A DNA stretch of 42,951 nt from the NCBI GenBank assembly GCA_016650295.1, contig JAENWA010000062.1:1-42951 (forward strand), read 5' to 3'. Below, in pieces: positions 4,218-32,993 of this stretch. The DNA comes from Desulfuromonadales bacterium (GTDB lineage Bacteria > Desulfobacterota > Desulfuromonadia > Geobacterales > Pseudopelobacteraceae). Within the stretch, counting starts at the first letter, position 1. The number at the start of each line of letters is the position of its first letter. The translations under genes were made by a program, and so were the position numbers. A model generated the notes under the pieces. That model searched no databases and was not told the DNA's origin. It worked only from the letters and a program-made list of their open reading frames with translations.

Positions 4218-4227
4218 GAGAATGCAT

Positions 4228-5775
4228 ATGAAGATATTTTACTATGGTCTTGTACTGCTCTGTTCTGTGACATTATGGGGCTGCAGCAAAGGTAACACTA
4301 ATGCGCCGGCTACGATTGATCCGGCAACCGGAAAACACGCAGTGGCCAACTGGGTCAGCCCGACTGTTCACGGTGGTCTTGATTTTGGTGCCAGTAAAAA
4401 TATGGGTGCATGTCAAGAGTGCCACGGCAATGATTTTGCCGGTGGTATTTCAAAGGTGTCCTGTCTGAATACCTCCGGTTGCCATGGTGTCGGTGTTTTT
4501 TCGCCCCATCCGCAAAAACCCTGGAGAGGAGGTGGCTTGATAACTCATACGCTTGTCAATGTCGATAATGCTCTCGTATGTGCCGCTTGCCACACAAAAG
4601 GCCAGAATCTTTCGACCCCGATTTTATCCAGTTACGCCACGGGCGCCCCCGGGTGTTTTAACAGCACTCTCTGCCATGGCGAGGTAGGTCACGCAAACGA
4701 TCCGCAGCCCTGGTCGGCCCCTGCAAATCACGGGGCAAACCCCGGCCTCATCGGGAGGCCGGGCGCCAAATTCAGTATTGCGGCCTGTCAGCCGTGCCAC
4801 GCAGTCCCGTCCACCGGCCAGAATCCGTTATTTACTGTTCCAAAGACCGGTATGCCGGGTGGATGTTCTTCTGCGGGCTGCCACGATCAGAATATCAACC
4901 TTGCCCATCCCTTTGTATGGCTGCCAAACCGGGTGGCGGGTATAACAACAAGTCATGCAACAGCCGGAGATTTGAGCAATTCCTGCGGGCTCTGTCATGG
5001 GATCGCTCTTAATGGAGTTGGTGGTGTACCATCGGCACCAACGTGCTTTGGCCCTGGTTCCTCAAAGACTTTTGGTGCGATAACACTACGATGTCATGCG
5101 ACATCTCCTGCGGCAGCGCCAATCAACTGCACGTCGTGCCATAGCTCCCCACCAAATGGTACCGTTTCACCAAACCAGGCCAACGCGCATACGGCTCATT
5201 GGGCGATCCCCGGTCTTGCCGCCATTGCCAATTTCGGAGGTTGTGATACTTGTCACAATGGGAATGGGTTCGGGAAAGCAACCCATGCTGATGGAACCGT
5301 TAATGTTGCTCTGTCGCCAACCTTCCAGGCAAAAACCGGCGGGGCGGCTACATTTGATCCAAACCTCGTCAGATGCTCTAATGTCAGTTGCCACGGAGGA
5401 CAGATAACACCGCCGTGGACTACGGGAACTATCAACGTCAACACAGACTGCAACAATTGCCACATACTTGGCACTACACAGTTTAACAGCTACAATTCCG
5501 GCCGATTTACAGATCCTGGTCCTCCTGCAACTATTGTAAATTTACATGATTTTCACTTGAACAGTGTCGGACTTGTTTGCACCGATTGCCACAATACTTC
5601 AAACCTGGCAGTGAACCACTTTACGCATCTGGAAACGCAGATCATGGAAGGACCAGCTTCGGCTACGATTGGTGGCGGGACCACCAGCGTAACAACGTAT
5701 GTTGCCGGTGTTCCTGGAAGCGGAAGTTGTACTCCAAGCCCAACCAGTCCCTGCCACGCCACCAGAACCTGGTAA
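4228..5775 (+). CDS. Multihaem c-type cytochrome lipoprotein, outer-surface candidate
   Basis: Starting at ATG 4228, which has AGGAG seven bases upstream (an ATG at 4222 sits too close), the product is 515 aa. It has a lipobox (VTLWGC, Cys near residue 19). I count eight CX2CH motifs (CQECH, CAACH, CQPCH, CGLCH, CTSCH, CDTCH, CNNCH, CTDCH) and two CX4CH (CSSAGCH, CSNVSCH). There are also odd ones with longer spacing: CLNTSGCH and CFNSTLCH (CX5CH) and a C-terminal CTPSPTSPCH (CX7CH). CX4CH mixed with CX2CH is typical of Geobacter cytochromes. It closes the three-gene conduit operon ten bases after the five-haem gene and is the likely terminal electron carrier on the cell surface. Whether the CX5CH and CX7CH sites carry haem is open. 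Confidence 0.85.
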   Translation: MKIFYYGLVLLCSVTLWGCSKGNTNAPATIDPATGKHAVANWVSPTVHGGLDFGASKNMGACQECHGNDFAGGISKVSCLNTSGCHGVGVFSPHPQKPWRGGGLITHTLVNVDNALVCAACHTKGQNLSTPILSSYATGAPGCFNSTLCHGEVGHANDPQPWSAPANHGANPGLIGRPGAKFSIAACQPCHAVPSTGQNPLFTVPKTGMPGGCSSAGCHDQNINLAHPFVWLPNRVAGITTSHATAGDLSNSCGLCHGIALNGVGGVPSAPTCFGPGSSKTFGAITLRCHATSPAAAPINCTSCHSSPPNGTVSPNQANAHTAHWAIPGLAAIANFGGCDTCHNGNGFGKATHADGTVNVALSPTFQAKTGGAATFDPNLVRCSNVSCHGGQITPPWTTGTINVNTDCNNCHILGTTQFNSYNSGRFTDPGPPATIVNLHDFHLNSVGLVCTDCHNTSNLAVNHFTHLETQIMEGPASATIGGGTTSVTTYVAGVPGSGSCTPSPTSPCHATRTW

Positions 5776-5850
5776 TTTATTTATCAATCCAACGGCGTCG
5801 CTCCTTTTATGCGGGAGCGGCGCCGCCTCCCGAAACTGTAAAATTAAATG

Positions 5851-5879
5851 TTGACAGAAACTATCAAGCTGTGAATAAT
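5851..5879 (+). promoter_or_regulatory. Putative promoter of riboswitch copy 1
   Basis: TTGACA (5851-5856), a 17-bp spacer and AATAAT (5874-5879), with TG three bases before the -10 box. Initiation here would start the transcript about 15 nt before the GEMM aptamer. Confidence 0.55.
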
Positions 5880-5901
5880 AAAAATAGAACCATGGTTTGA
5901 A

Positions 5902-5984
5902 ACGATACACGATAATACTAAACCATTCGCGAGAATGGGGCGGAAAGCCTACAGGGTCTCAACGAGACAGCCGGGTTGCCGAAA
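5902..5984 (+). promoter_or_regulatory. GEMM-type cyclic-dinucleotide riboswitch, copy 1
   Basis: The core AAACCATTCGCGAGAATGG (hairpin closed by a GCGA tetraloop), then GGGCGGAAAGCCTACAGGG, then AGACAGCCGGGTTGCCGAA matches the GEMM-I pattern known from the Vibrio Vc2 aptamer. Aligned without gaps to Vc2, the base at the ligand-contacting G20 position is A (in AATACTAAACC). In known GEMM-Ib members of Geobacter this selects 3',3'-cGAMP. The 3' half of the aptamer is also the 5' arm of the terminator at 5972-6019, so ligand binding and termination compete. Confidence 0.88.
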
Positions 5985-6019
5985 TATCCATTGGATATAT
6001 TGGGCAACCCTTTTTTTTT
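5972..6019 (+). terminator. Riboswitch-controlled terminator, copy 1
   Basis: GGGTTGCC (5973-5980) pairs with GGGCAACCC (6002-6010), with an inner ATATCCA/TGGATAT stem, followed by nine T. The 5' arm lies inside the aptamer, the standard on-switch layout. Confidence 0.85.
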
Positions 6020-6130
6020 GTCTTGAGGAAGATTAATGATGGATTACTGCACAAATTAGTTTATCAACCCAACGGCGCCGTTCCTTTATTTACGGGGGCA
6101 ACGCCACCTTCCGCAACTGAAAAATTAATG

Positions 6131-6159
6131 TTGACAAAATAAGTCAAGTTCTAAATAAT
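6131..6159 (+). promoter_or_regulatory. Putative promoter of riboswitch copy 2
   Basis: TTGACA (6131-6136), a 17-bp spacer and AATAAT (6154-6159), in the same place relative to the aptamer as in copy 1. Copy 2 could therefore be transcribed on its own or as part of the copy 1 transcript. Confidence 0.5.
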
Positions 6160-6181
6160 CAAAATACAAGCACAGTCTAAT

Positions 6182-6264
6182 ACGATATACGATAATACTA
6201 AACCATTCGCGAGAATGGGGCGGAAAGCCTACAGGGTCTCAACGAGACAGCCGGGTTGCCGAAA
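6182..6264 (+). promoter_or_regulatory. GEMM-type cyclic-dinucleotide riboswitch, copy 2
   Basis: The core is identical to copy 1, including the A at the G20-equivalent site, and ends 46 nt before the start codon at 6311. It directly precedes the NHL-repeat gene and should control it by transcription termination. Confidence 0.88.
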
Positions 6265-6297
6265 TATCCACTCGATATACTTGGTAACCCTTTTTTT
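6252..6297 (+). terminator. Riboswitch-controlled terminator, copy 2
   Basis: GGGTTGCC pairs with GGTAACCC (one G-U pair), followed by seven T. The inner stem differs from copy 1 but keeps the fold. The T-run ends 13 nt before the start codon of the next gene. Confidence 0.85.
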
Positions 6298-6310
6298 GTC
6301 TGGAGGATTC

Positions 6311-7948
6311 ATGTTGGATTTCGGCACCAAAGTTGTCTACATCCTTGGGGTGGCAAGTTGTATTCTTCTGGGAAGCGCACCAGTGCCTTCTCAAGCACAG
6401 GGTGCAACAATTCCAGTGGTCGGTGTTCTTGCATCAGTCACGGATGGTGTCAGCACACCGGTCAGACTTGCCACCGATTCATCCGGCAACATCTATGTAA
6501 CCGATCCGCGCGGTGGCGGAATCCTCAAGTATGACAATTCCGGCGCATTGATTCAAACTATCTCAACCCTGAAAAACGTGATGGGTGTTGCGATTGCCAC
6601 TAATGGTGATCTGCTGGTCAGCCAGGGAAGTTCCGTGGAGGTTCTTGATAAAACCAGTGGTGCGTTGCTATCCCAGTTCGGCAGTTTCCTGAGTTCCAAC
6701 GGCATTGCCGTAGACGGCGGTGGTAATATTTATGTAACAGACAGCTTGGATAACTGTGTACAGGTATTCAACTCCGCCCATGCGCCGGTAAGCACCGGTA
6801 CAGCGGCAGCAGGCAAGCCAATCAACAGTTTCGGATCTGTCGGCAGGGCAACCGGCCAGTTCATGCGACCGACTGGTATCACCTATGAAAAAATCTCCAA
6901 TCAACTTGCCATCGTAGACACCCTGGCCGGCCAGGTTCAGTTTTATTCCACTGCAGGAATCTATCAGTCCAGCATCGGTTCTTTTGGAGCCGGTCCGCTC
7001 AAGTTCACATCCCCACAAAGCATCGCCTTTGAATACACCAAAGACAGCCTGACCCTGAGCCGCATGTATGTTGTTGATTCCTTCCAAGGCAATGTTCAGG
7101 TCATTGATGCAGCTACGGGAGCTTTTCTAAGCTATATCGGCAGTTACGGTCTGGCCGGCGGCGAGCTTGCCACTCCCGGCGATGTTCTCTACGATCATTT
7201 TGACCCGCTCAACAACCGTCTGCTGGTAGCCAACGGTTCCGGAGTTCTTTCTCTGTTCAGCATCGATATGGTAACGGGAACGTGCGGAACCTCCAATAAC
7301 AATGCTTTCATGGTTGCTCCGACAGCCAACCTCTGCAGAAACGGAATCGTGACAAATTTTATCGGAAGCGGTCCTTGGAGCTGGAGTTGCGCCGGCCAGA
7401 ACGGCGGTACCACCGCAACCTGTTCCGCATCTCTTCTGACTAATCAGATCGCTGTCAACATTATCGGAAGTAACGGCGGCAACGGCAGCGTAACAAGCAA
7501 TCCAGGCGGCCTGAATTGTCTCAACGGAACCTGTACCGCAAACTTTGTCGCAGGCAGCAGCGTCACCCTGATACCACTCGCCACTGCCTCTTCAACATTT
7601 GTCGGCTGGTCAGGCGACTGCAGCAGCGCCGGAACCGGAGACTGTACCGTCAGCATGACGGCTGCCCGCAACGTTACCGCCACCTTTGCACTGATTCCGA
7701 AAGCAAGATCAAACAGTACGCCGTATGGAACAATTGCCTCGGCTTATGCAGCAATCAATGTAAGTGGTACAATTGATGCTCAGTCCAGCACCTTTGTTGA
7801 AAACCTGATTTTCAATAGAGGAAGTGTAGTAACACTGAAGGGTGGATACGATTCAATCTACAGCACTCGCACCGGCTACACCGTGCTTAACGGAACCTTG
7901 ACCATCAATTCCGGAAAACTGGTAGTTGACAGGTTGATTATAAAATAA
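6311..7948 (+). CDS. Secreted NHL-repeat beta-propeller protein with InlB-like repeat
   Basis: ATG 6311 is chosen because TGGAGG lies four bases before it; the frame is open further upstream but would run through the riboswitch. The 545-aa product has a signal peptide (about residues 1-32, ending APVPSQAQG) and no haem motif. Residues about 40-320 carry NHL-type repeats: DSSGNIYVTDPRGGGILKYD, VDGGGNIYVTDSLDNCVQVF and MYVVDSFQGNVQVID. Residues about 405-460 form a bacterial repeat of the InlB/Listeria-Bacteroides kind (GNGSVTSNPGG, FVGWSGDC, NVTATFA). The tail (residues 470-545) is a beta-rich segment with LKGGYDSIYSTRTGYTVLNG. NHL propellers are binding scaffolds. Placement behind cGAMP-type riboswitches and between cytochrome genes suggests an extracellular role in electron transfer or attachment; this is inference. 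Confidence 0.82.
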   Translation: MLDFGTKVVYILGVASCILLGSAPVPSQAQGATIPVVGVLASVTDGVSTPVRLATDSSGNIYVTDPRGGGILKYDNSGALIQTISTLKNVMGVAIATNGDLLVSQGSSVEVLDKTSGALLSQFGSFLSSNGIAVDGGGNIYVTDSLDNCVQVFNSAHAPVSTGTAAAGKPINSFGSVGRATGQFMRPTGITYEKISNQLAIVDTLAGQVQFYSTAGIYQSSIGSFGAGPLKFTSPQSIAFEYTKDSLTLSRMYVVDSFQGNVQVIDAATGAFLSYIGSYGLAGGELATPGDVLYDHFDPLNNRLLVANGSGVLSLFSIDMVTGTCGTSNNNAFMVAPTANLCRNGIVTNFIGSGPWSWSCAGQNGGTTATCSASLLTNQIAVNIIGSNGGNGSVTSNPGGLNCLNGTCTANFVAGSSVTLIPLATASSTFVGWSGDCSSAGTGDCTVSMTAARNVTATFALIPKARSNSTPYGTIASAYAAINVSGTIDAQSSTFVENLIFNRGSVVTLKGGYDSIYSTRTGYTVLNGTLTINSGKLVVDRLIIK

Positions 7949-8483: not shown

Positions 8484-11400
8484 ATGAATAGATTGGTTTG
8501 GGTGGCCTTGTCATTGATGTTGTCTGTCCTCATGACTCCCTTATGTGCAGACGCCGTTGATGCTCCCCACTTCGGCGGGACCTCCGGTTTTACCTGCGCC
8601 ACATGTCACACGGCTCAGCTGACGCTCGGCACCACCGGCTACAATAATATCTGCCTGAACTGCCATCGCTCCGGCGACCCGGCCGCCGGGAAGAAACCGT
8701 TCACTTCGGCAGATGCTTCCAATGTTTATGGGAACCATTCCCCAACGGGGACGAAGTTATATCAAACTTCGCACCGTTGGGACGGACCGGACATCGTTCC
8801 GGCCGCTGGCGCCTTGCCTCCGATTCAAGCCGCCCTGACCAGCAACAACCTGCGCGGCCGCACCGGCAATGCACTGGCCTGTGTCCGTTGTCATGACCAG
8901 CACTCCAATACCAACGGGAAATTTCTCAGGGTAGCCAACGATCAGGATCAACTCTGTCTGGATTGTCACCGTTCGCGTAATGTCCAATCCCATCTTCAGG
9001 GGAGTCATCCGGTCAAGATCAACTACAACAGCGCCCCCGGTTCCTTCAACAAACCGCCACTAAATTCCAATCCCGCAAACCCCACCTCGGATCTGAACGC
9101 ACGATTGGCCGCCTCGGGGGGAAATCTGCTCTGTTCCACCTGTCACGGCGTCCATTATACAGATTCTCGCAGCAGTACCGTTGACGGCAGCGCCAACTTT
9201 ACGACAATCAGCAGCAGCAATGGTTTCCTGTTACGTACCGACATGCGCGGTGCCAAGATAACCAGCGGTTTGCCTGACAAATCAAATATCTGCACCAACT
9301 GTCATGCCGGCAAGAAAAACCACAACCAGGCTGGACAGGACATTCAGTGCATTGACTGCCATGGCGCTCATGTGGAGTTCGACCCGAACGACCCCACCGC
9401 CAGCAAGGGCACCAATGTCTTTCTAATACGTAGAAATATAATCAACAAGGCCACCGGACAACCCAGCCAGATATACTTCCGTTATACCGGCAGCAAACGC
9501 GAATACAAAAATGCTCAAGGGACCGGTGTTTGCCAGGGGTGCCATGCCGTGCCGGCGGCAGGCACGTTTAATGCGCCCCCCGAACACGCCAGTACGGACC
9601 CCAAGGTTTGCAACTCGTGCCATTTTCACAACAGCCCCATCGGCTCCTTTTCAGGAGCCTGCACCTCTTGCCATGGGTACCCTCCGACCACCGCCACGAT
9701 TGGAGGTCCCACGGGACTGGCCACGCCCGCTACCGGTGCTACTGCCGCCAATCCCGGTGCCCATGCGACACACGCAAAAGGGCGCCTGATGGCCTGCACT
9801 ACCTGTCACAACGGATTTACAAGCAAAACAATGCCAAGTAACAGCATTGACATTGGATTTTCAATCAATGGCGGCAACTTCCCCGGTTTTGGCGGCAGCG
9901 TTACGACAGGCACATACATAACTACAACCCCGCTTGCTGCTCCGTACACATTTTCCGGCTCCGTAAGTTCAACCGGCACCAATCAAACCTGCGTAAACAT
10001 CTATTGTCACGGTGCCACACTGTCCGGCGGAACGAGCACCACACCACTTTGGACCGGTACCAACCAGGCGGCCTGCGGCACATGCCACGGTGTTACGCCG
10101 GCAACCGCACTATCTTCAGGAAGCCACCTCCGTCATGCCGGTTCAAGTTCCGCCGGACTGCTGGCATTGGCCTGCTCAACGTGTCACGGTGCAACAACCG
10201 ACAATACCCATATCAACGGAAGCGTCAAATGGGACTTGTCCGCACTGGGCGGCGCTGCCGGCTATAAAACTCCTGCCGGCGCTTATGCGCCGACCGGAAG
10301 TACCGGAACGATTGCTCCGAGCGCTGCCTATGGCCAATGCACAAACATTTATTGCCACAGCAATGTTCAGGGGATCTTCGGTTCAGGGGCACCTACTGTT
10401 TACAGCCAGCCTGTCTGGGGTGGATCAACCCTTGGCTGTGCCGGGTGCCACGCTGATATGGCCACCGATGCAACCGGCACTGGCAGTCACCGGGTCCATA
10501 CCATATCTACGGGAGCCAACTTTGATTGCGCAGTCTGCCATGCCGGATACACCAAAACCTCCACGGCACCGGCAACTCATGCTAACAGACTGATCGAACT
10601 TGGGGCAACCGGTGTCACATACTCCCAGGGCACAGCGCACGCTCCCGGAAGCGGCTATGGCACCTGTTCGGCGTCAACGTGTCATGGTTCCGCAACAGTC
10701 CCCTGGGGAGGGACACTCTGGTCTGCAACCGATCAGTGCGGAAAGTGCCACGCCAGCAACGCCGCCGGAGCAATAACAGTCGCTTCGCCCTTTCACGGGA
10801 CTTCTTTCCCGACCAGGGTATCCGCAGCTACGGATGCAAAGGTCGGTGCACATACCGCTCATGTTGCAAGCATCGACAGCATATCGGCTGCAATAGACTG
10901 TGCCGGCTGTCACGGTAGCGTGACACTAAAAGGCGCAACCCATATGAACGGGACCACCAACTTCGTCTGGAACGCGCTGGCAACTAAAAATGGCGCCCTG
11001 ACACCGACCTATACAGCTGCCACAGGAACCTGCGCCAACGTTTACTGCCATGGTGCTGCCATGCCCGGCGGCGACACCAGCGGCACCAACAGGGTTCCGG
11101 TCTGGAACAGCAACACCTATCTGCCGTCAACCCTCAGCGCGGCAGCTTGCGGAACCTGTCACGGCTTCCCGCCTTCAACCGCTTCCGGCCACCCGTCGAT
11201 CATTATCCCGGCAGGTTTCCCTGCCAGCGCCTCGATCAGCACAACATGCAGCTGCCATTCCAATATTAATCCCGCCGGCAACAGCTACGCCAATATCTTT
11301 GTCAATATCGCCCTTCATATCAACGGAACCCTTGATGTTTCCGCTGGTGGGGCTTGTGATTCCTGCCACGGCTATCCGCCAGCCGGTGCCGGTTTTGTCG

Positions 11401-11738
11401 GAACCCACGGCAACTGGTCCAGCGCTAAGGTTGAGAATTACCTGGGCGGCGGCGGCGCCCATACCATCCTGAACCATATCAGCAAACTGGCCAAGCCGAG
11501 TGAAGGCTTTGCCAATTGCTCCAATTGCCACTCAGCGACCGATCACCAGATGAGCCCGATTGCATTCAACCCGAGCAAGAATATCAAGGTATCGGGTAAC
11601 CAGCGAAACAGGTTTGTAGCTGCCAAGCAGTTCAAATACAGCTCCAATCGACTGGACGGGAATTCGCACGTGACCGGTAGCTGTTCCAACGGCAGCTGCC
11701 ACTTCGGAGCCACTCCAAAATGGGATCCAAAACATTAA
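8484..11738 (+). CDS. Giant multihaem c-type cytochrome A (1084 aa)
   Basis: ATG 8484 follows CAGGAG. A signal peptide spans about residues 1-25 (MTPLCADAVDA); no lipobox. By eye there are 20 CX2CH motifs, from CATCH near residue 39 to CSNCH near 1015. Five are CX4CH (CVNIYCH, CTNIYCH, CSASTCH, CANVYCH, CSNGSCH) and one is an odd CXCH (TTCSCHSN). The N-terminal third has the doubled-CXXCH look (FTCATCH, CLNCHRSGD, CVRCHDQHSNTNGKFL, LCLDCHRSRNV, CSTCHGVHYTD). The C-terminal 500 residues are built from modules shared with the next two genes (SHRVHTISTGANFDCAVCHA, CGTCHGFPPS, GGACDSCHGYPPAG, SNRLDGNSHVTGSCSNGSCH). Such proteins carry electrons in the periplasm or outside the cell. The protein is likely secreted; exact location and partners are unknown. 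Only 57 bp separate it from the next cytochrome. Confidence 0.88.
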   Translation: MNRLVWVALSLMLSVLMTPLCADAVDAPHFGGTSGFTCATCHTAQLTLGTTGYNNICLNCHRSGDPAAGKKPFTSADASNVYGNHSPTGTKLYQTSHRWDGPDIVPAAGALPPIQAALTSNNLRGRTGNALACVRCHDQHSNTNGKFLRVANDQDQLCLDCHRSRNVQSHLQGSHPVKINYNSAPGSFNKPPLNSNPANPTSDLNARLAASGGNLLCSTCHGVHYTDSRSSTVDGSANFTTISSSNGFLLRTDMRGAKITSGLPDKSNICTNCHAGKKNHNQAGQDIQCIDCHGAHVEFDPNDPTASKGTNVFLIRRNIINKATGQPSQIYFRYTGSKREYKNAQGTGVCQGCHAVPAAGTFNAPPEHASTDPKVCNSCHFHNSPIGSFSGACTSCHGYPPTTATIGGPTGLATPATGATAANPGAHATHAKGRLMACTTCHNGFTSKTMPSNSIDIGFSINGGNFPGFGGSVTTGTYITTTPLAAPYTFSGSVSSTGTNQTCVNIYCHGATLSGGTSTTPLWTGTNQAACGTCHGVTPATALSSGSHLRHAGSSSAGLLALACSTCHGATTDNTHINGSVKWDLSALGGAAGYKTPAGAYAPTGSTGTIAPSAAYGQCTNIYCHSNVQGIFGSGAPTVYSQPVWGGSTLGCAGCHADMATDATGTGSHRVHTISTGANFDCAVCHAGYTKTSTAPATHANRLIELGATGVTYSQGTAHAPGSGYGTCSASTCHGSATVPWGGTLWSATDQCGKCHASNAAGAITVASPFHGTSFPTRVSAATDAKVGAHTAHVASIDSISAAIDCAGCHGSVTLKGATHMNGTTNFVWNALATKNGALTPTYTAATGTCANVYCHGAAMPGGDTSGTNRVPVWNSNTYLPSTLSAAACGTCHGFPPSTASGHPSIIIPAGFPASASISTTCSCHSNINPAGNSYANIFVNIALHINGTLDVSAGGACDSCHGYPPAGAGFVGTHGNWSSAKVENYLGGGGAHTILNHISKLAKPSEGFANCSNCHSATDHQMSPIAFNPSKNIKVSGNQRNRFVAAKQFKYSSNRLDGNSHVTGSCSNGSCHFGATPKWDPKH

Positions 11739-11795
11739 CAGGCTGATCAGTCACATAAAACCAGTATTGGTACTTGAGTGAAAAAGGAGTCGCAT

Positions 11796-14303
11796 ATGAA
11801 AAGAACGCTTGTCGCCGGTATGTATTCAAGCATGTTGGCAATTATTTCACTGCTGGTTTTGTCACTTACTGAAGTCCCGGCACAGGCGGTTAGTGTGCTC
11901 AACTCCTGTACAACTTACTGCCACGGCATGCCGCCGCGAGATGCCGCACGCAAGGGGAACCCCCGCTTCGGATCTCAATCCAGCGCCTTCATCGGCAACC
12001 ACAGGAACCATCTTTCGGGTGCTCCGGTCGCCAGCGACTGCAGTATCTGTCACACACCGGTTGCCCCCACCAACTTCGGCCACCAAACTGGCGTCATTAA
12101 CATGGCAAACAGTCTGAAAGGCTATTCTTCCGCCGCGTTGCGTGCCAGGTACGACAAGGGCGTTTTCTTCAACCAGACCTCAATCCCCAACCTGAGCAAC
12201 GCCACCTGCTCCAACGTCAGCTGTCACTTCGAGAAGAAAACACCGGTCTGGGGTTCTGCTGCATTTGTTGCACCCGTGGACTGTAATGCCTGTCATGGCG
12301 CCCCGCCCAGCGGTGGAGCGGCCGGTGCCGTCGGCAGCCATGCCCGGCACGACGCCTATTTCCCGGGAACCAGCAACTGTCAGAAGTGCCATCCCAATCA
12401 CGTGACCTTCATCCATGCCACCAGCGCCGGGAGTCCCCTGCAGGTTCAGGGCTTCCTGCGTGACCCGCTCAATACCCTGGAAGCAACCGGTACCTACACC
12501 GGTACCGGCCTCAACTATCTGCCCAGCAAAAATGCCTCCCAGGTATTCGGCAGCTGTAACAACATCTACTGCCACAGTATCGGCCAGTCTGTAACCGGCG
12601 TCGGCGCCGGCACTGCGGTAACAACACCCGCATGGGGCAGCGCTGCGCTTACCTGCGGTTCCTGTCACCAGAACATGGGCCCGGCGGTCAACGCCAATGC
12701 CACCGGCAAACATTCCAAGCATGCCCAGACCGCCGGTATCGCCTGCTCTGTCTGCCATGGCGCAAGCTACACCAGCAGTACAGTTCCGACCGGCGCCGGC
12801 ACTACCCATGTGGACAAGAACATCAATCTGGCCTTCAGCGGAGTTGCCTCGTCACCAGCCACCACCTACTCCAAAGGAAATACCTTCGCCGCTGGAGTAT
12901 CGGTATACGGAAACTGTTCCAACAGCTACTGTCACAGCACCGTGCAGAATGCAACCACCGGCCTCGCCGGAGCAACGTACAGGTCCGTCAGCTGGACCAC
13001 TGCAACTAACCTGACCTGTGCCGGCTGCCATGTTGACATGACCACCGACGCAACCGGCAGCGGCAGCCACCGGGTCCACACCATTGCAACCGGCGCCAAC
13101 TTTGACTGCGCTGTCTGCCATGCCGGTTACACCAAAACATCAACCGTACCGGCAACCCATGTCAACGGCCTGATCGAACTGGGTGCCGCCGGCTTCACCT
13201 ACTCCCAGGGCGCGGCTCATGCTCCCGCCAGCGGCTACGGTACCTGTTCCGCCAGTGTCTGTCACGGTCAGGGCGCAGTCACCTGGGGCGCCACCTTCGT
13301 CGCCGGCACAACATTCCCCTACTCGACCAGTCAGTGTGACAAGTGTCACGCAGGGACAACCGCAGCGCCGTTCTACTCAACCGCAATACCTAAAGTCACC
13401 TCCAACACCGATGCCAAGGTCGGCGCACACACCTCGCACCTGACATCGACGGACAGTCTGGCTTCTGCTTTTGCCTGCTTCGATTGCCATGGTACGGTCA
13501 CGCTGAATTCGGCCAATCACATGAAAGGCACCACCAGCTTCAGCTGGAGTGCTCTGGCGCAAACCGGCGGATTGACTCCGACCTACTCAGCCGGCTCCTG
13601 CGCCAACGTCTACTGCCACGGCGCCGGAATGCCGGGCGGCGACACCAGCGGAACCAACCGGACGCCGACCTGGAATGTTCCCTTCCTGCCGGCAACTCTC
13701 ACCTCGGCAGCCTGCGGAACCTGTCACGGCTTCCCTCCGTCAGCTGCTTCCGGACACCCGGCGGTCACCATTCCGGCCGGTTTCCCGACAACCGCCTCGA
13801 TCGGCACCACCTGCAGCTGCCACGCCAACATCAACACATCAGGCAACAGCTACGCCATCATCTTTGTCAACAAGGCCCTGCATATCAATGGGACGGTGGA
13901 TGTTGCCGTCGGTGGCGCCTGCGATACCTGCCACGGCTATCCTCCTGCCAGTGTCGGCTTTACCGGAACCCAGAACAACTGGTCCACTGCCAGGGCTGAA
14001 AACTACCTGGGCGGCGGCGGTGCCCATACCATCGCAAGCCACATCAGCAAAACAGCCAAACCTGGCGAAGGATTTGCCAACTGTACGAAATGCCACAACG
14101 CTTCGGACCACGTCATGAGCCCGGTTGCCTTTAACCCGAGCTCAAACATCAAAGTCAGAGTTAACCCGCGATACAGGCTTGAAGCTGCCAAGCAGTTCAA
14201 GTATAGTTCCAACCGTCTGAACGCGACTTCACACGTGACCGGAACCTGCTCTAACAGCAGCTGCCACTTCGGTGCCACCCCCAAGTGGGACCCGGCCCAT
14301 TAA
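11796..14303 (+). CDS. Giant multihaem c-type cytochrome B (835 aa)
   Basis: I choose ATG 11796, with AAAAGGAG eight bases upstream; a GTG at 11778 lies before that ribosome site. The signal peptide ends at VPAQAVS (about residue 32). Motifs by eye: 12 CX2CH, six CX4CH (CSNVSCH, CNNIYCH, CSNSYCH, CSASVCH, CANVYCH, CSNSSCH), one CX3CH at the mature N-terminus (CTTYCHGMPPRD) and one CXCH (TTCSCHAN). The N-terminal half matches cytochrome C (GSQSSAFIGNH, SNVSCHFEKKTPVWGSAA, QKCHP, QVQGFLRDPLNTLE). The C-terminal 300 residues match cytochrome A down to the end (FGATPKWDPAH). It is therefore a mosaic of its neighbours. A predicted periplasmic or secreted electron carrier. Confidence 0.88.
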   Translation: MKRTLVAGMYSSMLAIISLLVLSLTEVPAQAVSVLNSCTTYCHGMPPRDAARKGNPRFGSQSSAFIGNHRNHLSGAPVASDCSICHTPVAPTNFGHQTGVINMANSLKGYSSAALRARYDKGVFFNQTSIPNLSNATCSNVSCHFEKKTPVWGSAAFVAPVDCNACHGAPPSGGAAGAVGSHARHDAYFPGTSNCQKCHPNHVTFIHATSAGSPLQVQGFLRDPLNTLEATGTYTGTGLNYLPSKNASQVFGSCNNIYCHSIGQSVTGVGAGTAVTTPAWGSAALTCGSCHQNMGPAVNANATGKHSKHAQTAGIACSVCHGASYTSSTVPTGAGTTHVDKNINLAFSGVASSPATTYSKGNTFAAGVSVYGNCSNSYCHSTVQNATTGLAGATYRSVSWTTATNLTCAGCHVDMTTDATGSGSHRVHTIATGANFDCAVCHAGYTKTSTVPATHVNGLIELGAAGFTYSQGAAHAPASGYGTCSASVCHGQGAVTWGATFVAGTTFPYSTSQCDKCHAGTTAAPFYSTAIPKVTSNTDAKVGAHTSHLTSTDSLASAFACFDCHGTVTLNSANHMKGTTSFSWSALAQTGGLTPTYSAGSCANVYCHGAGMPGGDTSGTNRTPTWNVPFLPATLTSAACGTCHGFPPSAASGHPAVTIPAGFPTTASIGTTCSCHANINTSGNSYAIIFVNKALHINGTVDVAVGGACDTCHGYPPASVGFTGTQNNWSTARAENYLGGGGAHTIASHISKTAKPGEGFANCTKCHNASDHVMSPVAFNPSSNIKVRVNPRYRLEAAKQFKYSSNRLNATSHVTGTCSNSSCHFGATPKWDPAH

Positions 14304-14310
14304 CCTGCCA

Positions 14311-14332
14311 GCGGGAGGGGCAACCCTCCCGC
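14311..14332 (+). other. Stable GCAA-loop hairpin between cytochromes B and C
   Basis: GCGGGAGGG and CCCTCCCGC form a perfect 9-bp stem with a GCAA tetraloop. No T-run follows, so it is more likely an mRNA-stabilising or attenuating hairpin than a full terminator. It starts eight bases after the stop of cytochrome B. Confidence 0.6.
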
Positions 14333-14390
14333 CTTACATTGTACGGTTTGACAGATTGAGTGTTATGTTGCCAGAGAGAAGGAGCTGACC

Positions 14391-17300
14391 ATGGGGAAAA
14401 ATAGCGCGAGCAGAAGAAGATACTCGCAGGTCGTTGCAGGATTTGCCGCACTGGTGTCACTTTCGTTCGGTACGTGTTTAGCCGAGGCCGCCAGTTTCCT
14501 CAACAGCTGCACCACCTATTGTCACGGCACGCCTCCGCGGGATGGCGCTCGAAAAGGCAACCCGCACTTCGGTTCCCAGTCCAGCGCCTTCATCGGCAAT
14601 CACAAGAATCACCTCTCTGCTGCACCATCCACTAATGACTGCAGCATCTGTCACGTTCCGGTTGTCGCCACCGGCTTCGGCCATCAGAACAACGTCGTTG
14701 ATATGGCCGTAAAACTGAAGGCGTACTCGACCACAACCGGACGGGCCAGGTATGACAAGGGGGTCTTCTTCAACATGACCTCGATTCCCAACCTGACCAA
14801 CGCCACCTGCTCCAACGTCAGCTGCCACTTCGAGAAGAAGACCCCAGTCTGGGGATCGGCTGCCTATAACATAGCCACCGACTGTAACGCCTGTCACGGC
14901 GCACCACCGGCCGGAACTGCTGCAACTCCCGCCGGTGGTCTGACCGGCAGCCATGCCCGTCACGACGTCTACTTCCCGGGAGCCGGCAACTGTCAGAAAT
15001 GCCACCCCAGCTACACGACCTTCATCCATGCCACCAGCGCCGGACGTGCCTTGAAGGTACAGGGTTTCCTGCGCAATCCTCTCAATACACTGGAAACATC
15101 AGGAACTTACTCCGGCAGCGGAGCCAATTATCTGCCCAGCAAGAGCGCCTCCCAGGTGTTCGGTTCCTGCAACACGATCTACTGTCACAGCACCGGCCAG
15201 TCAGTAACCGGGACCGGTACCGGCCTAACCTTTAAGGCGGTTACCTGGGGCAGCGCCGCTCTGACATGCGCCAGCTGCCATGTTGATATGGCCACCGACG
15301 CAACCGGCACCGGCAGCCACCGGGTCCACACCATTGCAACCGGCGCCAACTTTGACTGCGCCGTCTGCCATGCCGGTTACACCAAAACTACGATAAGTAC
15401 GGCAACACATACCAATGGCCTGATCGAACTGGGTGCCGCAGGTTTTACCTACTCCCAGGGGAGCGGCGCAACACATCCGGTCGCAAACGGCTACGGAACA
15501 TGCTCCGCCAGCTCCTGCCACGGTCAGGGTACCGTTACCTGGGGCGCCACCGCCGCAGCGCCGGTCAACGGTTTCCCCTTTTCGGCCAGCCAATGCGACA
15601 AGTGTCACTCCGGGACAGCCGCCGCACCGTTCTACTCAACAGCCATTCCGAAAGTTATTATCAATACAAATGCCAAGGTTGGCGCACATACCTCGCACCT
15701 GACGGCGCCGGACGGCCTGGCCACTGCATTTGCCTGTACCGATTGCCACGGCGCGGTTACGCTTAACTCCGCCACCCATATGAATGGCACAACCAACTTC
15801 ACCTGGAGTACCCTGGCGACCAAGAGCGGCGCTCTGGCACCAACCTACACGGCTGCCACCGGAGCCTGCGCCAACGTCTACTGCCACGGCGCCAGCATGC
15901 CCGGAGGTGACGCTTCAGGAACCAACAGGGCTCCAGCCTGGAACAGCAGCACCTATCTGCCGGCCACCCTTACCGCAGCAGCCTGCGGAACCTGTCACGG
16001 CTTCCCGCCGTCTGCAGTTTCCGGACATCCGGCGGTAACTGTTCCGGCCGGTTTCCCGGCTACCGTCACTATTGGTACCACCTGCAGTTGCCACTCTAAT
16101 ATCAACACTGCTGGAAACAGCTATGCCACTATGTTCGTCAGCAAGGCACTGCATATCAACGGGACGGTTGAAGTGTCGGGTGGACACGCCGTACCGTTCT
16201 ACGCTCACACCACACCACCGTTCACCTCCTGCACCGGATGCCATAACGCATCCGCAGCAGGTGCGTATCCGGCCGCAGTTGCCGGAACATCCCCGAACTG
16301 CCGCGGCTGCCACATTACATCCGACCCGACAGTCACCTCGACCGGCTGCTCCTCCTGCCACACCAGTCCGCCGAGCGGGACGACCCATCCGAACGCCGTC
16401 GGCAGCCATGTTAAGCACGGCCTCCTGGCGGGTGTAACCATGCCATGCACGGTCTGCCATAACGGAGCGGGCTCCGGCAGCGGCGCTTCCCACGGCCCCG
16501 GCAACAAGGGAACCAACCCGGCGGTTGATAATGTCATCTTCACCGCAGCGCAGGCCGGCGCTTCCGCAACCTGGACCGCCGCGACCAAGACCTGCTCCAC
16601 CACCTATTGCCATGGTGCTACTCTTACCGGCGGCACTAACAAGAGCCCGGTCTGGGGAACGACACTCACCGGCTGTGGGCTGTGTCACGGTGATCCGCCT
16701 GCCACCACAACACACTCGGGTGTTACGGTAACCCAGTGTATTACCTGCCACGATCATGTAAATGCGGCCGGCACCGGCTTCACCAATGCTGCCCTGCACA
16801 TGAACGGTGTCATTGATGCCAGTGGTGGAAGCTGTATCAGTTGTCACGCCAGTGTTCAAACTGGTACCCATGGTACGCCACGAGATGCGATCATGACTGA
16901 ATTCGGTCTTGCCTGGGGTCACAAGAAGACAGGTCGTGGGGCGGTAACCGATGCGGACTGTATCGTCTGTCACCTTGAAGGGGATTTTGCAACCCAGAAA
17001 CCCTCGCCAAAACATAAGGACGGCAACATCGATCTGCGTGACCCGGATGGAGTTGGTGAAGTCCCCATCAAGAACATATCCGGAGGTGTCTTTACCTTTA
17101 CAAAGTTTGCAACATCGTATGCTGCCGGTTCAAGAACATCCACCGGTCATCTGTCCAATACCGATAATGCCAATGTTATATCGCAGAAGTTCTGTCTGAC
17201 GTGCCATGACAACAACGGTGCTACAAACACAACGGCTCGTTCAAATAACGGCGGCACCGGCACGGCTGCGATGCCTTTTGGCGGCAGGGCACTTGGTACC

Positions 17301-18020
17301 ACTTATACGGCGGCAAACAACGCTATCGGAACCCAGGGACTTATAGACGTCAAGACTCAGTTTGCGTTAACAAATTCTTCGCGTCACCCTGTGCTCGGTC
17401 CACGGACGAGAGACTTCCCCTATTCGACACGGCTTGCAGTTCCGTATAATAATATCGGGACAGCAAGGGATACCAATGCTGCCGCTGGACATACTACCGC
17501 AGCCAGCGTCGTTTTGAACTGTTTCGACTGCCACAATACTCCTACAACCCCGCTGACGTCACGTACCGTTGCAGCCCACGGTAATGCAGTGACGCTGCGG
17601 GGTACCGTTTATGCGGGGTCGGCAGCGTCTACACTCTGCACAACGTGTCATACGGGTTATACCGGGACAGGTCAGCACGGTACTGGATCAGCGTGGTCAG
17701 TTACAGGATCAAGCCATAATGTGTCCCGTGGTTGTGAGTATTGCCATGGAAGCCAAACTAGCACAACAGCTCAGGTGCGGCCGATCCGCGCTCAGGATTA
17801 TCATGGCAGTAACGCGAGAGTTGGTGGTGGTTTGTGGCCGACAGTAAATTCACGCCCCTATGCCTTTATTAGAGGCTGGAGCGGCACTGCCTATCACAGG
17901 CCGTACAGGGCTACTGAGTTTACCACTGGCAGTGCAACCTGCGGAGCAGGGACCTGTCCGGGTGGTGGCCAGGTAGCTGACGGTTCGACTCGTACCTACA
18001 CAGCAGGCGGCACATATTAG
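14391..18020 (+). CDS. Giant multihaem c-type cytochrome C (1209 aa)
   Basis: ATG 14391 follows GAAGGAG by six bases. A signal peptide ends around residue 35 (GTCLAEAAS). By eye: 20 CX2CH, five CX4CH (CSNVSCH, CNTIYCH, CSASSCH, CANVYCH, CSTTYCH), one CX3CH (CTTYCHGTPPRD) and one CXCH (TTCSCHSN). Residues 1 to about 590 run parallel to cytochrome B, at places nearly base for base (compare 13044-13140 with 15292-15388). From about residue 600 it diverges. A second haem-rich stretch (CTGCH, CRGCH, CSSCH, CTVCH, CGLCH, CITCH, CISCH, CIVCH) is followed by a haem-poor region (about 860-1080) and a C-terminal part with CTTCH and CEYCH. The conserved tail of A and B is absent. A terminator at 18047 ends the cluster. 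Predicted secreted or periplasmic electron carrier. Confidence 0.88.
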   Translation: MGKNSASRRRYSQVVAGFAALVSLSFGTCLAEAASFLNSCTTYCHGTPPRDGARKGNPHFGSQSSAFIGNHKNHLSAAPSTNDCSICHVPVVATGFGHQNNVVDMAVKLKAYSTTTGRARYDKGVFFNMTSIPNLTNATCSNVSCHFEKKTPVWGSAAYNIATDCNACHGAPPAGTAATPAGGLTGSHARHDVYFPGAGNCQKCHPSYTTFIHATSAGRALKVQGFLRNPLNTLETSGTYSGSGANYLPSKSASQVFGSCNTIYCHSTGQSVTGTGTGLTFKAVTWGSAALTCASCHVDMATDATGTGSHRVHTIATGANFDCAVCHAGYTKTTISTATHTNGLIELGAAGFTYSQGSGATHPVANGYGTCSASSCHGQGTVTWGATAAAPVNGFPFSASQCDKCHSGTAAAPFYSTAIPKVIINTNAKVGAHTSHLTAPDGLATAFACTDCHGAVTLNSATHMNGTTNFTWSTLATKSGALAPTYTAATGACANVYCHGASMPGGDASGTNRAPAWNSSTYLPATLTAAACGTCHGFPPSAVSGHPAVTVPAGFPATVTIGTTCSCHSNINTAGNSYATMFVSKALHINGTVEVSGGHAVPFYAHTTPPFTSCTGCHNASAAGAYPAAVAGTSPNCRGCHITSDPTVTSTGCSSCHTSPPSGTTHPNAVGSHVKHGLLAGVTMPCTVCHNGAGSGSGASHGPGNKGTNPAVDNVIFTAAQAGASATWTAATKTCSTTYCHGATLTGGTNKSPVWGTTLTGCGLCHGDPPATTTHSGVTVTQCITCHDHVNAAGTGFTNAALHMNGVIDASGGSCISCHASVQTGTHGTPRDAIMTEFGLAWGHKKTGRGAVTDADCIVCHLEGDFATQKPSPKHKDGNIDLRDPDGVGEVPIKNISGGVFTFTKFATSYAAGSRTSTGHLSNTDNANVISQKFCLTCHDNNGATNTTARSNNGGTGTAAMPFGGRALGTTYTAANNAIGTQGLIDVKTQFALTNSSRHPVLGPRTRDFPYSTRLAVPYNNIGTARDTNAAAGHTTAASVVLNCFDCHNTPTTPLTSRTVAAHGNAVTLRGTVYAGSAASTLCTTCHTGYTGTGQHGTGSAWSVTGSSHNVSRGCEYCHGSQTSTTAQVRPIRAQDYHGSNARVGGGLWPTVNSRPYAFIRGWSGTAYHRPYRATEFTTGSATCGAGTCPGGGQVADGSTRTYTAGGTY

Positions 18021-26285: not shown

Positions 26286-27068
26286 ATGCAAAACACTATT
26301 CTTGCCAACCTCGAACAAATTGAACAAGAGCAGAACGTTTGTATTCTCTTCGCCGTGGAGTCTGGCAGCCGTGCCTGGGGCTTCGCATCAAAGGACAGCG
26401 ACTATGATGTGCGCTTCATATATCTGCATCCGCTGGAATGGTATCTCTCAATCCGCAAACAGCGGGATGTGATTGAATGCCCCATATCCGGCGACCTGGA
26501 CATTAGCGGCTGGGACCTGCCGAAGGCACTCGGATTGTTTCGCAAGTCAAACCCTCCTCTTCTGGAATGGATTGGTTCTCCTCACGTCTATCTTGATCGT
26601 TACGGTCTTGCGGACCGGTTGAGGGAACTGATGACTGTTTATTACTCACCCAAACGCTGCCTGCTTCACTACCTGCACATGGCGCGGGGAAACTTCCGGG
26701 AATACCTGAAGGGGGAGACGGTACGTATCAAGAAATACTTCTACGTCCTGCGGCCCGTTCTGGCTTGTCTGTGGATAGAGAAGCACAACAGCATGCCGCC
26801 GACTGAATTCGCCGAATTGTACAAGGACGCAGGACTTTCGCCATCAATTTCAGCAGAGATTGACAGGTTACTGCTTCGAAAAATTGCAGGAGACGAGCTG
26901 GATATGGAGCCCAAGATTGAGGTAATCAATGCCTTTCTTGAGCAACAGATTGACCATTGTTCGGCCTTTGTTGAGGGTATGGAGATGGTGGATGTTGATG
27001 AAGATGTATTGGACGAGTTTTTCCGGGAGATACTGGGGAGGGTATGGAAGTCAGAACCGGCCATATAA
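26286..27068 (+). CDS. RlaP-like predicted nucleotidyltransferase
   Basis: This 260-aa protein has the polymerase-beta-type nucleotidyltransferase signature near the N-terminus: AVESGSRAWGFASKDSDYDVRF (about residues 25-46), with the GS motif and the DSDYD metal ligands. The downstream part (WDLPKALGLFRKSNPPLLEW, then YLHMARGNFREYL, KKYFYVLRPVLACLWIE) matches the COG3541/RlaP group, which is associated with RNA repair operons. The actual substrate of this protein is unknown. AGAAGGA precedes the ATG. It lies alone among defence genes; such proteins are frequent cargo of islands. Domain call is firm, the RlaP assignment moderate. Confidence 0.78.
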   Translation: MQNTILANLEQIEQEQNVCILFAVESGSRAWGFASKDSDYDVRFIYLHPLEWYLSIRKQRDVIECPISGDLDISGWDLPKALGLFRKSNPPLLEWIGSPHVYLDRYGLADRLRELMTVYYSPKRCLLHYLHMARGNFREYLKGETVRIKKYFYVLRPVLACLWIEKHNSMPPTEFAELYKDAGLSPSISAEIDRLLLRKIAGDELDMEPKIEVINAFLEQQIDHCSAFVEGMEMVDVDEDVLDEFFREILGRVWKSEPAI

Positions 27069-27193
27069 TCTGTACTTGAGAACTCAAATCAAATCGCCGA
27101 AATGAAAAGTTGTGGCGATTTTTGTTTAGCTTCAATATTGAGTGAAATTCATATAATATCGGTTGCGTTTCCAAATGCTGTCATGACCGGGAA

Positions 27194-27385
27194 ATGGCCG
27201 GCAAGAAGAGGCAGTGGTTTATCAAATTTGATGCGTTACTTAGGTCCAAACAAGGGAAAAAATGGGGCGGATGGGGAGTGGACGGCAAGAAGCTGGCGAA
27301 GAAGCAGAATGGACGGTTGTTGCAGGGGAGGACGTGGGATGCGGTGCCGTTAGCACCGACACCCAGCCAATGTTCTATAGTTTGA
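27194..27385 (+). pseudogene. Probable 3' remnant of a DUF5131 (phage Gp37/Gp68-like) gene
   Basis: The frame from 27194 to 27385 encodes WFIKFDALLRSKQGKKWGGW, then GVDGKKLAKKQNGRLLQGRTWDAVP. Its second half resembles the C-terminal tail of DUF5131 proteins (FFFKQWG..., GRLLDGRTWDEMP). Only this tail is present, with no ribosome site and altered residues at the FFFKQWG position, so it looks like a decayed fragment. It sits in the 427-bp gap between the nucleotidyltransferase and the Gabija-like pair. The comparison is from memory of the family. Confidence 0.35.
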
Positions 27386-27410
27386 AATTTCAAGCTCGTG
27401 AAGTGGGCGG

Positions 27411-27438
27411 TTGTTGCCTGTTTGAGATTTTGTAAAAT
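27411..27438 (+). promoter_or_regulatory. Putative promoter of the Gabija-like operon
   Basis: TTGTTG (27411-27416), a 16-bp spacer and TAAAAT (27433-27438), 58 bp before the start at 27496. A weak match. Confidence 0.3.
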
Positions 27439-27495
27439 GTGTAGCTCCGGTATTTATGTTTTCACCTTATGTTTTCTTGCACGCTAGGGGGCAAC

Positions 27496-29286
27496 ATGTA
27501 TCTTGATACGATTACGATAAGTAATTTTCGGTCATTTGATAGGATAGAAATCCCCCTCTGCAAGGACCTCACGGTTTTCGTGGGAGAGAATAATAGTGGA
27601 AAGAGCAATGCAATTGACGCGATTCGTCTTATCACTACTCCGCTCGGAGGCCGGCGTGAAATATACGCTGAGTTGACAGACATTCGGTTTGGTAGTGTTG
27701 ATCGTAAATTCGAGATTGAAGCGCTTTTCAGCCATCTGAGCCCACCTCAGCAGGGGCGCCTACTTTCAGCGACAACAGACCATTCGCTCGAATCTGTCAG
27801 GTTCGGGCTGGCCTATGACGACAACACAAATAGCTATCCGGTCAGGCCGACACTATGGGCGGGCAAGTCAAAAGGAACACCGGAACCCGGCTGCCACGAA
27901 ATGATTCGTCACGTCTATCTCCCGCCGCTACGAGATGCAAAACGTGTCTTGGCCTCCGGCAACCCGACCCGAATCTACGCATTATTGAAACATTTTCTTG
28001 ATAATGACGACCCCGACGAGCTCGCACAGATGCTTGCTCGAAACTCGACTAATCCGATTCTTGGCAAGGTCGATGTCGCAGTCGAAATAGGCCTTTCCGC
28101 TCTAACTTCCGGAGTTCGGCAGCAAGTCGCATCGCTCGGTTTTGCGAACGATGAGAAGCTCATTGACATTGCGCGTGACCTTCGATTTAAACTCGCTGAC
28201 CATGGCATCGAACCGGAGGACCTAAGATATTCGGGTCACGGATACGCCAATCTTCTCTACATGGCAACGATCGCGGTTGAACTGGAGAAGGTAAATAATG
28301 CTGATTTGACGCTGTTTCTGGTTGAGGAACCGGAGGCGCATTTGCATCCACAACTACAGGCCGCGGTTCTCAGTTTCCTTGAAGAGCAGGCCGAAAAGTC
28401 CAATATCGAGAAACCTGAAATTACAGGTCCGGCCGGCCAGATACAAGTTCTCGTTGCGACTCATTCCCCTAATTTGTCCGCTTGGGTCGAAAACAAGAAT
28501 CTTGTGTATTTCAGGTCATTCATGCCCACAGATTCTCTTCCGACAGCAGAGAAAAAAAAGGTTGAGAAGTCTGCGCTGCGCCGCTCAACACGTTGTATCC
28601 CCCTCGCAAAGCTGAATCTGACTGATGTCGAGCGCAGAAAGATAGATCGCTACCTCGATGTCACAAAATCCGCATTCCTGTTTGGCGGACGTGCCCTTCT
28701 GGTTGAAGGTATCGCCGAAGCCTTGCTACTACCGATCATCGCCAAGTATTTAGTTTTGAAGGACAAGCCCGAACAACTCAGATTGTTCCGATCAGCGGCC
28801 TTCGTACCGATTGATGGTGTAGACTTTTTGCCTTACGTCAAACTCCTATTAAGTCCATTCAACGGCGTCTGTATCGCTGATCGCGTCGTGGTCATTACCG
28901 ACGGCGACAAGACGAAGGCAACTAGCGGCAAATCCAATCCGGGAGAACTCAGGAAAATAGAGCTAGAAGGGCACGCGAAGGACTTTGGCTCATCTGCTTT
29001 TTTAGAGGTGATTGTGAATACGTATTCATTGGAAACCGAACTGATCACAGCCGGAAATGGCGACCTTCTGAAGACGGTCTATCTTGAACTGCATAAAAAC
29101 TCTGAAACGAAATGGGCGGATGCAGTTGCGAAAACCGGCGATGAACAGGCGAAGGAGATTCAAGCGCTCTTCGGTACAACTCGTAAGGGCGACTTTGCGC
29201 AAATCCTTGCTGAGAAGATAACCAAGGGCGCATTTTTCTTAGTCCCTACGTATATTAGGACTGCCATTGAGGCACTTGTCGAATGA
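27496..29286 (+). CDS. gajA: Gabija-like GajA: OLD-family ATPase/TOPRIM nuclease
   Basis: I use ATG 27496, behind AGGGGG, giving 596 aa starting MYLDTITISNFRSFDRIEIP; an ATG nine codons upstream lacks a ribosome site. The ABC-type ATPase part has Walker A GENNSGKS (residues 30-37), a signature-like SGHGYANLL (about 247) and Walker B LFLVEEPEAHLHP (about 273-285). The C-terminal TOPRIM part has ALLVEGIAEALLLP (about 400-412) and VVVITDGDK (about 463-471), the acidic residues expected for a metal-dependent nuclease. In Gabija, GajA cuts phage DNA when nucleotide levels drop. Its stop overlaps the start of a UvrD-type helicase gene (ATGA), the diagnostic gajA-gajB layout. Size is close to known GajA (about 580 aa). 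OLD plus UvrD pairs outside Gabija exist, so the label is strong inference. Confidence 0.87.
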   Translation: MYLDTITISNFRSFDRIEIPLCKDLTVFVGENNSGKSNAIDAIRLITTPLGGRREIYAELTDIRFGSVDRKFEIEALFSHLSPPQQGRLLSATTDHSLESVRFGLAYDDNTNSYPVRPTLWAGKSKGTPEPGCHEMIRHVYLPPLRDAKRVLASGNPTRIYALLKHFLDNDDPDELAQMLARNSTNPILGKVDVAVEIGLSALTSGVRQQVASLGFANDEKLIDIARDLRFKLADHGIEPEDLRYSGHGYANLLYMATIAVELEKVNNADLTLFLVEEPEAHLHPQLQAAVLSFLEEQAEKSNIEKPEITGPAGQIQVLVATHSPNLSAWVENKNLVYFRSFMPTDSLPTAEKKKVEKSALRRSTRCIPLAKLNLTDVERRKIDRYLDVTKSAFLFGGRALLVEGIAEALLLPIIAKYLVLKDKPEQLRLFRSAAFVPIDGVDFLPYVKLLLSPFNGVCIADRVVVITDGDKTKATSGKSNPGELRKIELEGHAKDFGSSAFLEVIVNTYSLETELITAGNGDLLKTVYLELHKNSETKWADAVAKTGDEQAKEIQALFGTTRKGDFAQILAEKITKGAFFLVPTYIRTAIEALVE

Positions 29287-31028: not shown

Positions 31029-31068
31029 GGAGAGGGTCTTGCCCCTCTAAAAAATAGGAGTTTTTCAT

Positions 31069-32859: not shown

Positions 32860-32882
32860 AAGCGCCCTGCGTGGCGAGAAAA

Positions 32883-32993
32883 TCCCCCTCCCTAACCCTC
32901 ACCCGCTGGGTGAGGGGACTTATAATCCTCCCCCTCCTGGGGAGGGAACGAAAAGCTCCTCCCCCCAGCGGGGGGAGGTTGGGAGGGGGGAGA
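32883..32993 (+). repeat. GC-rich nested palindromic repeat R1
   Basis: Starts TCCCCCTCCCTAACCCTC and ends GGAGGTTGGGAGGGGGGAGA, so the ends are inverted copies of each other. Inner palindromes include CCCTCACCCGCTGGGTGAGGG and TCCCCCCAGCGGGGGGA. It is homologous to R2 and more loosely to R3. R1 lies between mod and the DUF559 gene. Confidence 0.9.

Follow-up and report, generated by a model that had tools for sequence, protein, structure and literature searches.

Among the known tandem arrangements of riboswitches, the pseudo-cooperative ones unite two full riboswitches of the same class in a single leader, and of all tandem classes one survey counted c-di-GMP-I riboswitches most often, with 347 doublets and 12 triplets (PMC9481103; here and below, papers are cited from excerpts of their text). 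A leading explanation of tandem arrangements given there is a steeper, more digital response. Tandem pairs of cGAMP-type GEMM-I riboswitches are known in Geobacter sulfurreducens, for example before omcAHG (GSU2885; excerpt of PMC6456294). A different combination, the adenine/T-box(Tyr) tandem of certain clostridial strains, has promoters before and between its RNAs (excerpt of PMC9481103). A literature search returned no paper on a tandem riboswitch with an internal promoter, nor on the duplication of a riboswitch together with its promoter; the passage on a second promoter in the excerpt of PMC2258182 concerns antisense arrangements.

Here, we describe a tandem leader in the draft genome (123 contigs) of a Desulfuromonadales bacterium, found in a stretch of 42,951 nucleotides that was analysed as a whole and that we call the window. 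Two riboswitches of one class lie in one leader without an intervening long open reading frame. The arrangement shares with the GEMM-Ib riboswitches of Geobacter the aptamer family, the cGAMP type, cGAMP as activator, the tandem pairing and the cytochrome context (excerpt of PMC6456294), and it appears to differ from them in that the promoter, ribosome binding site and start codon were copied too. With the pseudo-cooperative tandems it has in common that two full riboswitches of one class share a leader (excerpt of PMC9481103), whereas its near-consensus promoter 2 would let transcripts bypass the first switch. As in the adenine/T-box(Tyr) tandem, candidate promoters stand before and between the RNAs; however, the RNAs of that tandem sense different ligands, while the units in the window are copies. 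The tandem cGAMP-type pair is real and well formed, and its kind is already known. What distinguishes it is the apparent duplication of a whole leader with a candidate second promoter. We consider it probable that the duplicated leader acts as two parallel cGAMP-switched promoters.

The whole window was scanned with cmscan against Rfam 15, which gave one tRNA and two RF01051 (c-di-GMP-I, gathering 35) matches over gathering. Both RF01051 matches are on the plus strand, aptamer 1 at 5907-5983 (47.9 bits, E 1.9e-6) and aptamer 2 at 6187-6263 (48.2 bits, E 1.6e-6), with a start-to-start distance of 280 bp. This covariance-model result bears out the membership in the GEMM-I family that a preliminary description had proposed from the letters of the DNA. 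The same description held the aptamer cores to be identical; over their full length the aptamers are alike at 76 of 77 positions. Around the aptamers extends a 178-nt repeat with 87% identity and no gaps. RF03167 (c-di-GMP-I-GGC), a model of the same Rfam clan, was retained as the best clan member in an E-value search despite scores of 51.6 and 52.0 bits, under its gathering cut-off of 59; filing the aptamers under this variant was dropped for these scores, and a literature search found no paper on a c-di-GMP-I GGC variant riboswitch. Model position 11, a consensus G, is aligned with an A in both copies, at 5917 and 6197, and by the sequence and numbering of Vc2 we take this position to be the equivalent of Vc2 G20. 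Proper alignment hence agrees with the cGAMP-type A that the preliminary description had placed at the specificity site. Two P1b pairs, read from the model alignment, are changed from G-C/C-G to C-G/U-G, and the helix is maintained.

Each aptamer is preceded by a candidate sigma-70 promoter. Within 5700-6400 a consensus scan (threshold 9/12, a level reached in shuffled sequence by a mean of 1.0 sites, sd 1.2) reported two promoter-like sites only, promoter 1 at 5851..5879 and promoter 2 at 6131..6159, both on the plus strand, both TTGACA-17-AATAAT and both 11/12 to consensus. In each unit the aptamer begins after 27 further nt 3' of the promoter. The likeness of the copies is uneven. It amounts to 62/78 columns (gapped) 5' of the promoter, 12/12 in the hexamers, 9/17 in the spacer, 19/27 in the leader, 76/77 in the aptamer, and 30/36 in the remaining terminator and T run. 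If the hexamers are compared with the spacer and a 31 nt leader (4 aptamer bases included), Fisher's test gives p 0.013; measured against all 122 upstream columns (90/122 alike), 12/12 has a chance of about 0.03. The retention of the hexamers suggests, as no stronger than a hint, that both promoters are maintained. Gene conversion could also preserve the likeness of the aptamers.

Downstream of its aptamer, each unit has a putative intrinsic terminator on the plus strand. Terminator 1 (5973..6019) consists of a hairpin at 5973-6010 (-23.1 kcal/mol) followed by 9 T, and terminator 2 (6253..6297) of a hairpin at 6253-6290 followed by 7 T, which at -18.2 kcal/mol folds weaker than terminator 1. 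A consensus terminator scan missed both and listed three other sites, of which two lie within the aptamers on the minus strand and the third at 5761-5773; bulges and internal loops in both hairpins may be the cause. In both copies the 5' arm of the terminator, GGGUUGCC, is the 3' strand of the aptamer (5973-5980, and 6253-6260 inside the aptamer match). Because the 5' arm belongs to the aptamer match, terminator and aptamer should be mutually exclusive, and the ligand-free minimum-energy folds of both full leaders show the terminator. These hairpins fit the terminator platform proposed beforehand, and cmscan, promoter scan and folds together confirm two complete promoter-aptamer-terminator units 280 bp apart. 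The pilM cGAMP riboswitch has the same arrangement of terminator and aptamer; in this ON switch C75, which pairs with the ligand, is sequestered by the terminator (excerpt of PMC9262584). Since the arm is shared, the ligand should switch the gene on, and each unit should be a transcriptional ON switch. The architecture recurs in the tandem groups of relatives considered below, where a script located 64 of 67 aptamer 3' strands. A T run follows 61 of these 64 (the exceptions are G026a, G003a and the C15 pair of the own genome), and all 61 have a preceding hairpin that uses the aptamer strand, in folds that started inside the aptamer, so that the full aptamer was no competitor.

Repeats D1/D2 (spacing 280) and a global alignment delimit unit 1 as 5774..6053, plus strand, a duplicated leader that starts directly after the stop codon of the upstream cytochrome gene and runs to a relic gene start. 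Unit 2 (6054..6310, plus strand), set on the same basis of repeat and alignment, adjoins the NHL-repeat gene. The relic in copy 1 (6025..6059, plus strand) was recognised by eye against 6302-6334: GAGGA followed by ATGATGGATTACTGCACAAATTAG lines up with GGAGGA and then ATGTTGGATTTCGGCACCAAAGTT where the NHL gene starts. Thus, the copied piece apparently extended into the NHL gene, leaving in copy 1 a relic frame that is now a 7-codon ORF at 6036-6059 (MMDYCTN*). By eye this is the only start with a ribosome binding site between the aptamers; frames of 81-107 codons that span the leader were not counted as genes. A MAFFT end alignment at the relic start is gappy, with 22/46 columns alike, and where copy 1 has the relic start the orthologs carry GGAGGAAGA..ATG.

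The gene at 6311..7948 (plus strand, ATG at 6311) encodes a 545 aa protein with an NHL beta-propeller (Pfam NHL 36.9 bits, cut-off 20), a divergent InlB B-repeat (Flg_new_2 26.4 bits, cut-off 23.6) and, by eye, a signal-peptide-like N-terminus; it would be the regulated gene. Upstream, at 4222..5775 on the plus strand, lies a multiheme cytochrome gene with 8 CXXCH motifs (Cytochrome_C7 40.2 bits), which has a homolog in the same place in three orthologous loci (tblastn, 50-53% identity). Elsewhere in the window, three multiheme cytochromes of large size are encoded at 8484-18020; they have 20, 12 and 20 CXXCH motifs and 5, 7 and 6 of the wider CX3-4CH motifs, and two of the three have MtrC/MtrF-like domains. 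The protein encoded at 1022-2074 contains an ice-binding-like domain (Pfam 252.5 bits). A likely defence island occupies 26286-36200. It encodes RlaP and a DNA methylase as well as a type III restriction subunit, and in it a UvrD-like helicase comes after an AAA/OLD-TOPRIM protein, an order that we take to be Gabija-like.

The three syntenic orthologs (G030, G057 and G077; protein identity 72-74%) have one unit each, and all three have TTGACA-17-AATAAT, the hexamers and spacing of promoter 1. The leaders of G057 and G077 are alike at 247/250 positions, and because they are nearly identical these two count as a single line of evidence. Six other homologs that were scanned (L100-L104 and L046) have a best promoter score of 8 to 10 of 12 and lack AATAAT. 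Among the seven homologs L040-L046 a single RF01051 match lies upstream of the gene in three (L040, L041, L046), and of the eleven loci L099-L109 six have a single match; two matches occur in none of either set. The sets seem to overlap, since L101 and L102 are apparently the loci L040 and L041. Hence the double unit is confined to the window among the homologs examined. GC-rich hairpins without a T run lie 5' of the promoters, at 5793-5825 (-26.4 kcal/mol) and, weaker, at 6074-6105 (-13.6 kcal/mol); by eye the hairpin was not seen in the three syntenic orthologs. As to a repeat-element origin of the GC-rich hairpin, 5776-5847 searched against the own genome returned itself and a 20-base match only, in a low-sensitivity search that missed unit 2.

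We compared the leader with tandem groups from 18 genomes, the 4 of the genus and 14 hand-picked ones of the family, the latter each with at least 10 RF01051 matches. Family members with few or no matches (for example G004, G011 and G027) and some with at least 10 (G025, G028) were left out. Tandem pairs were chosen by eye, with a spacing of up to about 280 bp, and all 18 genomes contained one or more, in total 33 groups. The spacing in the window is 280 bp, versus 136-258 bp in the other 32. Promoters were sought in up to 80 nt upstream of each aptamer, for copy 2 from 45 nt past copy 1; in 9 of the other 32 groups the stretch to scan is shorter than 35 nt, the results have no value for copy 3 of the G026 triplet, and the scan reaches 10/12 in 11 of 33 copy-1 regions, that is, it misses many promoters. 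At this low sensitivity, the tandem of the window is the only one of the 33 groups whose copy-2 upstream region reaches at least 10/12 (it has 11), and the next best has 9 (G021). Its upstream regions are also the most alike of the 33 groups (local score 38.5; the highest score among 200 shuffles was 15.5). Copied leaders are found as well in G007b (24.5 versus 12.0) and G030a (16.5 versus 12.5), which correspond to L133 (G007:C27) and L154 (G030:C53); their units lie 200 bp apart and the inner promoter looks decayed by eye. The relatives also contain a mixed tandem, at locus L161 (G006:C3), in which an aptamer with A, of cGAMP type (1428-1504, 43.0 bits), is followed 181 nt downstream by a canonical c-di-GMP aptamer with G (1686-1776, 80.4 bits). 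It is possible that this pair works as a two-messenger gate, and a pair of its type is absent from the two-input table in the excerpt of PMC9481103.

The observed part of the explanation that we favour is the homology, the A at the specificity site, the overlap of terminator and aptamer, the duplication with its relic start and the identical hexamers. From these we infer the ligand, the firing of the promoters, the direction of switching and the output logic of the tandem leader. An ancestral leader, made up of sigma-70 promoter, cGAMP-type GEMM-I aptamer, terminator, ribosome binding site and first codons, would have been copied head to tail in this lineage. When the ligand is absent, the aptamer 3' strand GGGUUGCC would pair with the downstream GGGCAACCC in copy 1 or GGUAACCC in copy 2 and transcription would stop; 3',3'-cGAMP would stabilise the aptamer and let transcription continue. 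If both candidate promoters fire, as their sequences predict, transcripts from promoter 2 would reach the gene via one switch and those from promoter 1 only past both. The main effect would then be a larger amount of inducible transcript, supplied by two switched promoters in parallel, with little gain in steepness and a nearly additive output.

How far this differs from a gate in series can be seen in a simple model, in which f is the fraction read through and there is no leak. One promoter with two switches gives f squared, with an EC90/EC10 of 40 and an effective Hill coefficient of 1.19. For two equal promoters the output is f + f squared, with 66 and 1.05, and for a single switch the values are 81 and 1.00. 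The steeper response from a second gate in series, which the preliminary description had considered, is weakened by the position of promoter 2 downstream of switch 1: transcripts from promoter 2 would meet one switch, and the effective Hill coefficient would be 1.05 rather than the 1.19 of the pure series. A serial pseudo-cooperative gate, in which promoter 1 is dominant and two cGAMP-controlled terminators provide a steeper response and a tighter OFF state, is nevertheless the published expectation for tandem identical riboswitches (excerpt of PMC9481103), and RNA past the second omcAHG riboswitch was undetectable without gacA (excerpt of PMC6456294). It also accords with the copy-2 regions of the other tandem groups, of which 0/32 reach at least 10/12 in the low-sensitivity scan, and with the fold ranges of the model, which at 10% leak are 100 for the series, 18 for two equal promoters and 10 for a single switch. 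However, promoter 2 retains 11/12 with its hexamers unchanged, its output would bypass switch 1, and with two equal promoters the modelled steepness is largely gone. We therefore think it unlikely that the pair is mainly a serial gate.

It is likewise doubtful that the duplicate is unselected, with copy 1 a relic or the source of a short terminated RNA without a role. The relic start and its truncated ORF do speak of decay outside the RNA elements, three syntenic orthologs manage without a second unit, and with 62/78 columns still alike 5' of the promoters the time for decay may have been limited. Set against this, aptamer (76/77), hexamers (12/12) and terminator have been kept, while spacer (9/17) and leader (19/27) have diverged along with the upstream columns. 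An assembly artefact as the source of the duplicate is unlikely, since the two copies differ in sequence.

The parallel reading, in which the duplicated leader supplies two cGAMP-switched promoters, can be extended to the tandem groups at large, although we hold this extension only tentatively and would not put it at even chances. Whole-leader duplication may create the tandems, with the inner promoter usually lost later, so that a parallel arrangement turns into a series. The window would then show either the stage at which both promoters are alive or a selected parallel design, and G007 and G030 would be cases in which the inner promoter has decayed.

Concerning the ligand, the own genome has 18 RF01051 matches above cut-off, and by eye the specificity site is A in 13 of 18 and G in 5 of 18. 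The UACUNAAC / GGAAAGCC type of the window is, also by eye, common to 11 of the 13 A-bearing aptamers; two others, L004:974-1048 and L005:1501-1578, have A at the site yet, by eye, a canonical GC P1b. A likeness of the window's aptamer to the crystallised cGAMP aptamer was sought with an approximate sequence of the latter, at up to 3 mismatches in 12 genomes; one 3-mismatch match (G046) and nothing closer came up, and the comparison was set aside. The genome has 20 GGDEF domains, with Asp at the selectivity site in 16, Ser in 2 (L036, L037) and 2 unread by the script (L023, L039). The Rec-GGDEF protein L036 has 459 aa, and its best match in the PDB (E 1.4e-65; next entry 1.6e-39) is 6d9m, a lysozyme-cyclase fusion; the GHLVGS stretch is aligned and the Ser of L036 aligns with 6d9m. 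We take this entry to be the structure of Geobacter metallireducens GacA, with a lysozyme-fused GacA domain. A G. metallireducens GacA structure is described in the excerpt of PMC6456294, where Ser at the GGDEF selectivity site is given as the Hypr signature. The genome thus encodes a close relative, and predicted counterpart, of the cGAMP synthase GacA with the diagnostic Ser, which supports the cGAMP-type reading independently of the aptamers. Ser also occupies the Hypr selectivity site of another GGDEF protein, L037 (G000:C115:2834-3304), in a 360-codon open frame.

In riboswitches of this class, G at the selectivity site goes with c-di-GMP and A with c-AMP-GMP (excerpt of PMC9481103), and the position of G11 in Cd1 and G20 in Vc2 is called a selectivity factor (excerpt of PMC9262584). 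An A at the G20 site shifts the preference and is no proof of cGAMP over c-di-GMP, but the ligand of both aptamers is probably cGAMP. That they sense c-di-GMP, or both dinucleotides, rather than mainly cGAMP is quite improbable: a selectivity factor is not a hard filter (excerpt of PMC9262584), the Rfam models matched are those of c-di-GMP-I and the canonical Asp prevails in 16 of 20 GGDEF domains (Ser 2, unread 2), but the specificity-site A and a P1b of Geobacter type argue against it, as does the GacA-like synthase that the genome encodes.

Tandem cGAMP-type switches are common in the GEMM-I-rich relatives, in 18 of the 18 genomes examined. If promoter 2 of the window fires, the duplication would raise output more than steepness; if it is silent, the pair would be an ordinary series gate. 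A promoter copied together with its switch, beside relatives in which the inner promoter is unseen or looks decayed, offers a route to study the evolution of series gates, and the case of the window lets one ask whether dosage, not steepness, was the first benefit.
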